40,902 nt of DNA from Clostridia bacterium (GTDB lineage Bacteria; Bacillota; Clostridia; Oscillospirales; CAG-272), in NCBI GenBank assembly GCA_017522125.1, contig JAFXAC010000046.1, positions 1-40,902 of the forward strand, written 5' to 3'. Below the pieces are notes generated by a model. That model saw nothing but the letters and a program-made list of their open reading frames with translations, ran no database searches and had not been told where the DNA came from. The translations under genes and the position numbers were made by a program. Positions 14,129 through 17,914 of the stretch are shown here, one piece after another (positions within the stretch are counted from its first letter, which is position 1; each line of letters opens with the position of its first letter).

Positions 14129-14183
14129 ATCTATTTCCTTTCAAAATTATAAGCATTCATTGGGCATAATACCCGATTATAAT

Positions 14184-14189
14184 ATTATA
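14184..14189 (-). promoter_or_regulatory. Candidate lon-proximal -10 element
   Basis: A perfect minus-strand TATAAT (14189-14184) lies 56 nt before the lon start in a very AT-rich stretch. No convincing -35 element is seen at the right distance, so this is tentative. lon may also be read from the upstream promoter at 14410-14438 by read-through. Confidence 0.35.
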
Positions 14190-14249
14190 GCATATTTTTT
14201 TGCAAAATTCTATAATTTTATTAAATAATATATAAACTTTTTGCAAAAA

Positions 14250-14404
14250 GCAAAAAAATAAGCGGGAAAGCTCCCGCAGAAAATAAAAAAGCAACAACGG
14301 CGACCGATCCTTGCGCGTTTTGATATCATAAGCTTGATAGTCCGCAAAAAAAGGTGACCGTTGTGCATTCGAGGCCGATGGCGGATTATTATCCGCTTCT
14401 CGTG
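14250..14404 (-). ncRNA. Candidate structured small RNA or lon leader/attenuator
   Basis: On the minus strand, a promoter (TTTACA 14438-14433, 17 bp, TATAAT 14415-14410) predicts a start near 14404. The next about 155 nt contain a 5-prime hairpin (GCGGAT/ATCCGC inside CGAG/CTCG) and a long imperfect stem, GCACAACGGTCACC near 14366-14353 with GGTCGCCGTTGTTGC near 14305-14291. That stem encloses a TATCA/TGATA hairpin. The unit ends in a terminator GCGGGA-GCTT-TCCCGC plus a U-run at 14277-14252. No plausible coding frame. It is either an independent small RNA or a terminated leader upstream of lon; I do not recognise the family. Confidence 0.55.
14252..14277 (-). terminator. Terminator of the candidate structured RNA
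   Basis: Minus-strand 6-bp GC-rich stem GCGGGA/TCCCGC with loop GCTT, followed by TTATTTTTTTG. It has U residues only in the minus direction, so it acts on transcripts heading toward lon. Confidence 0.75.
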
Positions 14405-14409
14405 AGGAC

Positions 14410-14438
14410 ATTATACATCATTTTTCGGCGTTTGTAAA
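14410..14438 (-). promoter_or_regulatory. Promoter of the candidate structured RNA upstream of lon
   Basis: Minus-strand TTTACA (14438-14433) and a perfect TATAAT (14415-14410) are separated by exactly 17 bp. Confidence 0.7.
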
Positions 14439-14736: not shown

Positions 14737-16611
14737 ATGAAAAAACGAATAGTATCAGCTATTTTGGCAGTCGTTATGGTGCTTGCATCTCTCATCGCTG
14801 TCGCTCCCACGGCGTCTGCCGCTACGGGCTACGATCGCGGCTATACCGAGGGCGCGGGCGGCACGGGAAAGGTCGTTTCCAAGGGTATCGATATTTCCTC
14901 ATATCAGGGAAGCAACTTTAATTTTACTGCACTTAAAAACTGTGGATACGATTACGTTATCCTTCGTTGTGCAACGGGCTACAATAGTGCTACATATGTA
15001 GACCCCACTTTTGAGTCCAACTATACCCGCGCAAAGGCTGCGGGACTCGGCGTTGGCGTTTATTACTTCTCATACGCCTCCACCGTCGCAGGTGTTCAGA
15101 AGGAGATGACTCATCTTCTCAGCGTTATAAAAGGAAAGCAGTTTGAGTATCCCGTTTATTTCGACTTTGAGAACGCTGATACCAAATCCGCTATCGGCTC
15201 AAGTGTTACCACGGCAAAGAGTCTTTGCTATACCGCGCTTGACGCTATTGCCGAGGCAGGCTTCCTCGCGGGTCTTTACGGCTACGCGGGCTGGTTCGAC
15301 CCCGGATACAACGGTTGGTTTGCAAGCGGCGTTGCCGAGATCGCCGAGAAATATGACGTTTGGATAGCAAACTACTATAGACCCACAGATGAAACGAGCT
15401 ACGCTTGGGATCACCCTAAGAGCACGTTATATCCCACCACATACGGTATGTATCAGTATTCCTCCGACGGCAACAGCACGCTCAAGGCTAACGTTTACAA
15501 CGGTAAGCTCGACCTTAACGTTTGCTATAAGGATTACCCCTCTATCGTAAAAAAGTACGGCTTCAGCGGCTATGCCGCAGAGGGCACTCTGACCACCGAG
15601 GACTACGTTCCCTACGGTGAGACCTCTACCGCAAGCTGGTCTGCTGTTGCAAACGCGGCTTCCTATAAGTACAAGGTTACTCTCTACGATTATAATTGGA
15701 GCGAAAGCACCGCGCAGGTCGTTTATTCGGGAACTACTGCGGCGCAGTCCATCACTATTCCCGCACAAAGCACGGGCTGCTATATGAAGGTGGAGGTTAC
15801 CGCAAGTAACTCAAGCACTCCTATGGTGTCCTACTCCCGCCTTGGTCCGGGCAAGGAATACATAAACCTCAGCGCCGTCAACGGCAGTATAAACGTTTCC
15901 AACAGTATGATAATCACCTCGTCACAAGCGGCAACGAGTCCTGTATATTGGCTTGTATGCCTATGCTCGCCTCAAGGAGATGGAGTATATAAGGTAACCA
16001 AGCGTTGGGAAAACGAAACGTGGGATAAAGCTGCAAAGGCTACTGGCGACGACGTTCTTTTTGCTATTCATATGGACTACGCAAACTTTGATTACGCCGA
16101 AACGAATTTTGCCGTAGGCAAGACCGTTACCATCGCGGGTGTCAGCGGCACGTCGCTTTTGAGTATGCCCTATATCACCCTCGGTAGCGCATTGCCCGTT
16201 CAGGTCGAGCCTCTTGCTCCCACCGACACCAACCTTTCCATCAGCGGAACGTGCGTAAAGGGTGTCAGTGCTGGCGCAAGCGTCAGCGATTTTGCCGCTT
16301 CCTTCAACCACGACGCTTCAAGCCTCGTTGTTAAGAACGCGTCCGGCACTGCCGTTACCACGGGTACGCTTGCCACGGGTTACACCGTAAGCCTCGTTAT
16401 CAACGGCTCAGTTATTGAAAGCTATGCCGTAGTAGTAAGCGGTGATATCAACGGTGACGGACTTTCCACCGCGGCTGACGTGCTTACCGTAGCTATGAAG
16501 ATCAAGAGTCAGGCAACCCTCTCGGGCGCATACCTGTCCGCGGCTGACGATAACGGCTCGGGTGCTGTTGATTCAAGCGACTATCTCGCAATAAAAGAAC
16601 TTGTAGATTAA
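14737..16611 (+). CDS. Secreted GH25 lysozyme with C-terminal dockerin
   Basis: 624 aa from the ATG at 14737, chosen because the MKKRIVSAILAVVMVLASL signal peptide begins there and GAGGT lies upstream. Cleavage is probably near APTASA (about residue 29). The GH25 muramidase domain at about 45-255 has DISSYQG and the catalytic pair in VYFDFEN. A beta-rich middle (about 290-520) resembles fibronectin/Ig-like carbohydrate-associated modules. The last 55 residues form a type-I-like dockerin with two calcium loops, DINGDGLSTAADVL and ADDNGSGAVDSSDYL. The enzyme should cut the MurNAc-GlcNAc bond and could dock to a cohesin-bearing protein or complex. A paralog follows. Confidence 0.92.
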   Translation: MKKRIVSAILAVVMVLASLIAVAPTASAATGYDRGYTEGAGGTGKVVSKGIDISSYQGSNFNFTALKNCGYDYVILRCATGYNSATYVDPTFESNYTRAKAAGLGVGVYYFSYASTVAGVQKEMTHLLSVIKGKQFEYPVYFDFENADTKSAIGSSVTTAKSLCYTALDAIAEAGFLAGLYGYAGWFDPGYNGWFASGVAEIAEKYDVWIANYYRPTDETSYAWDHPKSTLYPTTYGMYQYSSDGNSTLKANVYNGKLDLNVCYKDYPSIVKKYGFSGYAAEGTLTTEDYVPYGETSTASWSAVANAASYKYKVTLYDYNWSESTAQVVYSGTTAAQSITIPAQSTGCYMKVEVTASNSSTPMVSYSRLGPGKEYINLSAVNGSINVSNSMIITSSQAATSPVYWLVCLCSPQGDGVYKVTKRWENETWDKAAKATGDDVLFAIHMDYANFDYAETNFAVGKTVTIAGVSGTSLLSMPYITLGSALPVQVEPLAPTDTNLSISGTCVKGVSAGASVSDFAASFNHDASSLVVKNASGTAVTTGTLATGYTVSLVINGSVIESYAVVVSGDINGDGLSTAADVLTVAMKIKSQATLSGAYLSAADDNGSGAVDSSDYLAIKELVD

Positions 16612-16653: not shown

Positions 16654-16669
16654 ACGAAAAGGCATGATG

Positions 16670-17914
16670 ATGAAAAGATTTATTTCCGTACTTTTGATAT
16701 TTGTTCTCGCCGTCGGGGGCGTTTCCGTATCTGCACTCGCGGCGGATGAGAACGGCTATGATCGCGGATATTCCGAAGGAATGAAGGGCAAGGGCAAGAA
16801 GATAGCCATGGGGCTTGATATTTCCGAGCATCAGGGCGGTAGCTTTGACTTCGAGGCTGTGAAAGCCGCAGGCTTTGACTACGTTATCCTTCGTTGCGGT
16901 TATTCGTCAAGCCCCAAGAGCGGTGCGCGTATGGACTATCATTTTGAGAGAAACTATACCGCCGCACGCGAGGCGGGACTTGATATAGGCGTTTACCTTT
17001 ATTCCTACGCAGGAACCGTCGCGGAGGCGAGGGACGACCTTGCGAATTTCCTTAAATATATAAAGGGGAAAAAGTTTGAATATCCCGTGTATCTCGATTT
17101 TGAAAACAACGAGGCGCGTCAGGAAATGGGCTCCGATCCCGCCGTGGCAAAGCAGATATGCCTTACCATTCTCGACGGACTTGCCGACGCAGGATATCTC
17201 GCGGGGCTTTACACATACGCGGCGTGGGCGGACCATAGCTATAACGGCTGGTTTGCCGACGAGGTCGACGAGATAGGCAAAAAGTACGATTTCTGGATGG
17301 CTAACTACTCCAAAAACGACGGCACGCTGAATATAGATAACGCGACGAGATATTCCAAAAAATACGGTATGCATCAGTATACGTCAGCGCGTAAGATAAA
17401 CGGATATGCGGGTAATCTCGACGCTAATATCTGCTTCAAGGACTACCCCGCAATAGTCCGCGCGTACGGCTTTAACGGCTACGCGGCGGAGGGGGCGGAA
17501 AACGTCACCTTCAAAACGGGCGGGCCTATAAAGGACCTTGAGATAGTCGTCGACACCTCTACGGCGGGCTGGTACAGCATTTCGGGCTCGCTCGGAATGC
17601 GCCGCGTGCGTATGGGCCCCGACAAGTCCTACGAGATGCTCGATCCCGTTGGGGACGGCGAGGCTTTCTACGTTTTGGGTACTTATAACGGCTGGGGAAA
17701 GATCGACGCAAACGGGATCGACGGCTGGGTGAATATGGAAAACGCCGTTCCCGCCGAAGCCCCCGTCACCACTTCACACGATACTACTGCCGAAGCAACT
17801 GCTGCCGCGGAAACTACCGTGAGTACGCAGGGCGGCTGCGGCGCTGTCGGCGCGAGTGCGCTTGCGGCTTGTGCCGTGGCTCTGATTGCGCTAAAACGCA
17901 AAAAAGAAGATTAA
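16670..17914 (+). CDS. Cell-surface GH25 lysozyme with SH3-like domain and C-terminal anchor
   Basis: 414 aa from the third of three consecutive ATGs (16664, 16667, 16670); AAAAGG at 16657-16662 best fits 16670. Signal peptide about 1-24 (VLAVGGVSVSALA). GH25 domain about 35-245 with DISEHQG and catalytic VYLDFEN, clearly paralogous to the preceding gene including the GYDRGY lead-in. A small SH3-like domain follows at about 285-360 (WYSISGSLGMRRVRMGP, GWGKIDANGIDGWV). Then comes a Thr/Ala-rich linker, the motif GGCG, a hydrophobic segment (ASALAACAVALIAL) and a basic-acidic end KRKKED. The tail looks like a membrane or sorting anchor, so this copy is likely cell-bound where the first is dockerin-borne. 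Confidence 0.9.
   Translation: MKRFISVLLIFVLAVGGVSVSALAADENGYDRGYSEGMKGKGKKIAMGLDISEHQGGSFDFEAVKAAGFDYVILRCGYSSSPKSGARMDYHFERNYTAAREAGLDIGVYLYSYAGTVAEARDDLANFLKYIKGKKFEYPVYLDFENNEARQEMGSDPAVAKQICLTILDGLADAGYLAGLYTYAAWADHSYNGWFADEVDEIGKKYDFWMANYSKNDGTLNIDNATRYSKKYGMHQYTSARKINGYAGNLDANICFKDYPAIVRAYGFNGYAAEGAENVTFKTGGPIKDLEIVVDTSTAGWYSISGSLGMRRVRMGPDKSYEMLDPVGDGEAFYVLGTYNGWGKIDANGIDGWVNMENAVPAEAPVTTSHDTTAEATAAAETTVSTQGGCGAVGASALAACAVALIALKRKKED

Follow-up and report, generated by a model that had tools for sequence, protein, structure and literature searches.

A family-restricted small RNA gene upstream of lon in Clostridia, predicted to pair with the spoVD–murE/murF mRNA

Is the structured segment that lies upstream of lon in a Clostridia bacterium (GTDB lineage Bacillota; Clostridia; Oscillospirales; CAG-272) a regulatory leader of that gene or an RNA gene in its own right—and, if the latter, what might it act on? 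The segment occupies positions 14,250–14,438 of the window, by which we mean the whole 40,902-nucleotide (nt) stretch analyzed here (assembly GCA_017522125.1, contig JAFXAC010000046.1). A preliminary description of it had offered three readings: a new small RNA (sRNA), a divergent 6S-type RNA, or a leader attenuating lon. We find a stand-alone sRNA gene at 14403–14281 on the minus strand, ~120 nt in length: a structured, conserved unit that is independent of lon and restricted to one family. Very probably, this is a single-copy, independently transcribed RNA that acts in trans and is predicted, in this genus, to pair with the spoVD–murE/murF mRNA. Its function would most likely be the trans-acting control of peptidoglycan-precursor genes.

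Read along the minus strand, on which all parts of the element lie, the locus consists of a promoter, a small 5′ hairpin (P1), an exposed linker, a long hairpin (P2) with a U-run, and a second, GC hairpin with a U-run of its own. The promoter, TTTACA-17-TATAAT (14438–14410), is of the sigma-70 type and matches 11 of 12 consensus positions, as had been proposed. Of 64 family loci, 60 have TTTACA or TTTACT as the −35 box (14433–14438 in the window), the promoter pattern places TATAAT or TACAAT at the −10 box (14410–14415) in 63, and 61 keep the spacing of 17; from the −10 box, the transcript start was placed at ~14403. A conserved AAAAATCGTC-like box lies ~15–20 bases upstream of the −35 box in family loci and is possibly a regulator site. 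P1 (GCGGAU AAUA AUCCGC; 14381–14396) keeps its pairing, varies in sequence inside the genus and is missing from some genera. The linker and the five bases that open P2 (GGCCUCGAAUGCACA, 14362–14376) make up the predicted pairing region, or seed, for the spoVD–murE/murF mRNA. P2 itself (14291–14366) is the conserved domain, scoring 70.6 and 71.8 bits with our covariance models R1 and R2, and carries a near-invariant apical module (GCGGACUAUCAAGCUUAUGAUAUC, 14322–14345) with the hexaloop ANCUNA.

P2 also serves as an intrinsic terminator, being followed by the U-run UUUUUUAUUU (14281–14290). The original proposal of a unit of ~155 nt ending in a terminator was right in that a second intrinsic terminator exists (GCGGGAGCUUUCCCGC plus U-run, 14252–14277; GC hairpin at 14277–14262), but this hairpin had no counterpart directly after the terminator-1 U-run in the aligned relatives. 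Because the U-run directly follows P2 in these relatives, we regard P2 as the primary terminator, and the RNA is therefore ~120 nt long, or ~150 nt with read-through. Neither is the segment devoid of reading frames, as first stated: an 84-amino-acid open reading frame (ORF; 14411–14157, minus strand) crosses it. The first codon of this ORF, however, falls within the −10 box, before any transcript could begin, and the frame would be broken by indels between relatives. With its own promoter and intrinsic terminator—both present in nearly all family members—and as an intergenic, non-coding unit, the element has the hallmarks of a trans-encoded base-pairing sRNA.

The richness in pairing was equally apparent on folding: at −52.3 kcal/mol, the predicted structure is more stable than that of dinucleotide-shuffled sequence (z = −3.8). 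In an alignment that had been fitted to the covariance model, 22 of 25 pairs displayed two-sided changes, and compensated cells numbered 291, compared with 85 after shuffling and 37–72 in slid controls. A MAFFT alignment made independently of the model gave two-sided changes in 14 of 25 pairs and 106 compensated cells (44 in shuffles). Compensatory changes were found in the ACAACGG/CCGTTGT stem, where the preliminary description had suggested looking for them. RNAalifold, when run on one alignment (A2), recovered the apical stem only, with the 3′ arm misaligned; an alignment of trimmed hairpins resolved this.

Far from being absent in close relatives, the element was recovered by nucleotide search in all 13 genomes of the genus, plus one genome of another genus in the same family. 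The 19-base pattern of the hairpin tip occurs on 68 contigs of a public genome set, of which 64 are Clostridia with the element and four lack both hairpin and promoter. Of 118 genomes sampled from the same GTDB family, 54, representing 33 of 71 genera, gave a single match each to the covariance models—a lower bound, because these searches use stricter filters—and there was no match outside the family among genomes sampled from the order (295) and the class (391). Within this sample, the RNA occurs in a single clostridial family only. Its tip is almost invariant (GCGGANUAUCAANCUNAUGAUAYC), although among the first 64 members this invariance partly reflects selection by the search, because those members were found with a pattern derived from the tip. 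Members found by model (L112–L139) nonetheless retain CA-ANCUNA-UG or something near it, and the outer pairs of their tip stem covary.

We asked whether this RNA belongs to a known class. No Rfam 15 family reached its gathering score in the window, 15 relatives matched only tRNA genes in the flanks, and a permissive scan of the window returned only weak matches far below gathering scores. The 6S-type reading fails in that RF00013 matches sit elsewhere, both in most relatives and in the same genome (G000:C98, 37.9 bits, below the family cut-off). The element shares with 6S RNA its stand-alone, structured, single-copy character, yet has no match to RF00013 and lacks the large central bubble. Likewise, the bacterial small signal recognition particle (SRP) RNA, which resembles the element in its long hairpin and similar length, is encoded elsewhere in the genome (G000:C51), and the element does not match RF00169. 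A viral origin was also considered and rejected, the apical pattern being absent from viral contigs. The raiA motif RNA, or ModT, is another conserved, structured non-coding RNA from Bacillota, for which a phenotype is known in Clostridioides difficile (PMC11706538); the present element differs in lacking an Rfam match in the window or the 15 relatives and in its confinement, as sampled, to one family. We found no earlier description in searchable open-access full texts, supplementary tables of large motif surveys excepted. Of the three initial readings, that of a new sRNA is thus the one supported by promoter, terminator, covariation, family-wide conservation and the lack of an Rfam match.

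In favor of a cis-acting leader or attenuator of lon, sensing heat, a metabolite or a protein, is the position of the RNA upstream of lon (TIGR00763; 11687–14128, minus strand) and on the same strand, which holds for the window and for most of the family loci in which lon can be seen. In many genomes, the RNA is located between the divergent infC-rpmI-rplT operon and lon, mostly facing lon. However, it is inverted relative to lon in ten loci, and in seven it is followed by convergent or unrelated genes, with the form of the RNA kept there. Given its reversed orientation in some species and its different neighbors in others, the RNA is not a lon leader: it lacks the constant cis position upstream of a regulated gene that a leader or riboswitch would have, and behaves as an sRNA independent of its neighboring genes. 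Moreover, the second −10 element noticed earlier in front of lon belongs to a separate lon promoter candidate, TTGCAA-18-TATAAT (14176–14205, minus strand), downstream of both terminators. The conserved domain is itself a terminator hairpin, with no conserved antiterminator seen. The switch once envisaged between AAGCGGA and TCCCGCTT would depend on two parts without sequence conservation, the variable 5′ hairpin and the second terminator. We therefore give a leader function only the slightest chance.

Two side observations concern these flanks. The position homologous to the lon start (14128–14126, minus strand) reads ATA where several relatives have ATG, and is preceded at a short distance by AAGGAAA, which resembles a Shine-Dalgarno sequence. 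On the other side, two glycosyl hydrolase family 25 (lysozyme-like) genes (14737–16611 and 16664–17914, plus strand), the first carrying a dockerin domain, separate the RNA from infC, which is directly adjacent in many relatives.

The seed offered a route to a possible target. GGCCUCGAAUGCACA is near-invariant in the 13 species and has an abrupt 5′ edge, beyond which the sequence is random. We searched the 13 genomes of the genus for its 13-nt complement, allowing one mismatch and using the reversed pattern as a control. A complement was present in the spoVD-murE-murF-mraY segment of 13/13 genomes, always on the sense strand. Total numbers of one-mismatch sites did not exceed those of the control, and the evidence accordingly lies in location and conservation rather than in number. 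Of the gene identities in this segment, that of spoVD is below its equivalog cut-off. In five genomes (G001, G003, G005, G009 and G012), the site falls around murE codons 40–45 (FVCIRG); in the other eight (G000, G002, G004, G006, G007, G008, G010 and G011), murE is gone from that place and the site lies in the spoVD–murF spacer (with the end of spoVD in G002 and G006 taken from the context of the complement-site search). Pairing is predicted to extend over ~15–17 bases, with duplex energies of −30 to −39 kcal/mol, whereas the other sequence windows of three tested loci average near −10 to −11 kcal/mol. The accessible, conserved linker thus finds its complement in an mRNA from another locus throughout the genus, and the site never overlaps a start codon. 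In seven of the eight murE-less genomes, it is placed in the loop region of a hairpin with a long stem, the sequence of which differs between species. A terminator role for this spacer hairpin was considered and not adopted, a clear U-run following the stem in some genomes only (G004, G007 and G010).

The mRNA site is under nucleotide-level selection in this genus. Among the five species that retain murE, five of five consecutive site codons are identical, whereas of all 215 columns in which the amino acid is the same, only 16 also share the codon. Where murE is missing, the spacers have a pairwise identity of 0.92 at the site but of 0.28 in the surrounding sequence; the conserved stretch coincides with the 15 nt predicted to pair with the RNA, the sole part to persist. 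In G004 and G010, RNA and mRNA have changed in concert (GGUCUC in the former, GAGACC in the latter), and G001 retains one G-U pair.

Several observations weigh against the pairing model or narrow its reach. The compensatory change in G004 and G010 represents a single evolutionary event common to two sister species, and G007 loses two adjacent inner pairs. Outside the genus, a mur complement exists only in some genomes (4 of 28 at a score ≥35, against 1.5% of swapped pairs), the best cases being G015, G017, G066 and G131. Perfect 13–14-nt complements occur in murE of G015 and G027 (in G080 with one G-U) and in the spoVD–murF spacer of G017, whereas in most other genera the complement does not rise above swapped controls. 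For this reason, mur targeting is a statement about this genus and not about the whole family. In addition, another clade has a conserved P1 loop, but no second site complementary to it was found.

The same complement also recurs elsewhere in the genus. In three species (G004, G008 and G010), it falls within the 5′ leader preceding a DUF6133 gene, which in G008 is followed by a CpaB-like gene; this leader is a possible second target there. G008 harbors two more exact copies of the 13-nt complement (G008:C148:8186 and G008:C150:1589), one within an ATP-synthase-like coding region, and a one-mismatch copy at the start of a ribonucleotide-reductase-like gene in two species is probably a coding coincidence.

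How, then, might the RNA act? In the model that we favor, P2 as the 3′ domain would provide a fixed scaffold—an intrinsic terminator hairpin bearing the near-invariant apical module—while the accessible linker and first P2 bases would serve as the base-pairing region, contacting, in the division and cell-wall cluster, the spoVD–murE/murF mRNA at murE codons or in the spoVD–murF spacer. We infer that the duplex forms in cells and controls murE/murF and, more weakly, that it would act by changing the stability or processing of the mRNA from spoVD to murF rather than by blocking a ribosome site; direct translational block appears the less likely of the two, the site being clear of start codons in every case. 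The nearest functional precedent, by analogy and with no homology tested or claimed, is StsR of Rhodobacter sphaeroides, whose pairing opens a structure to RNase E and alters expression of the division and cell-wall (dcw) cluster (PMC8307010, PMC5089854). StsR, of an alphaproteobacterium, acts on the 5′ leader of that cluster and on the derived sRNA UpsM, whereas here the site is internal.

Other explanations account for parts of these data. The RNA could primarily bind or sequester one conserved protein through its apical module, following the logic of CsrB, 6S or SRP RNA, with base pairing secondary. That the module is the most conserved part family-wide while stems and linker drift, and that mur complementarity is not general outside the genus, speaks for this view; we nevertheless consider it unlikely as the main role, as apical binding does not explain why linker and mRNA site are conserved together with matching edges in this genus. 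The two roles, scaffold and seed, can coexist. Alternatively, the mur mRNA site might be a sponge controlling the sRNA and not the reverse—conceivable for a site that is away from ribosome-binding sites and may sit in a presenting hairpin, but improbable, with no finding favoring that direction. Still less credible is that the shared 13–15 nt are a DNA operator of one transcription factor, placed in the sRNA gene and the mur operon: an exact short sequence common to separate loci could be read in this way, yet its orientation is constant, antisense in the sRNA gene and sense both in the mur genes (13/13) and in the three DUF6133 leaders, and it lies within transcribed regions, including the hairpin loop region in seven of the eight murE-less genomes.

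Returning to the scaffold-and-seed model, a fuller version that we put forward tentatively, at somewhat less than an even chance, holds that this is a lineage-specific sRNA in which a dedicated RNA-binding protein recognizes the constant terminator scaffold, while the linker is a seed that can be exchanged. The seed of this genus would control peptidoglycan-precursor synthesis, with the mRNA site kept as an RNA element after murE left the operon. The sRNAs of uncultured gut Clostridia are little explored, and the element adds a well-supported new RNA family for which cell-wall synthesis offers a concrete target open to testing. Its near-invariant apical module hints at a partner, and the persistence of the site where the operon lacks murE would be an unusually clear evolutionary trace of an sRNA–mRNA interaction.
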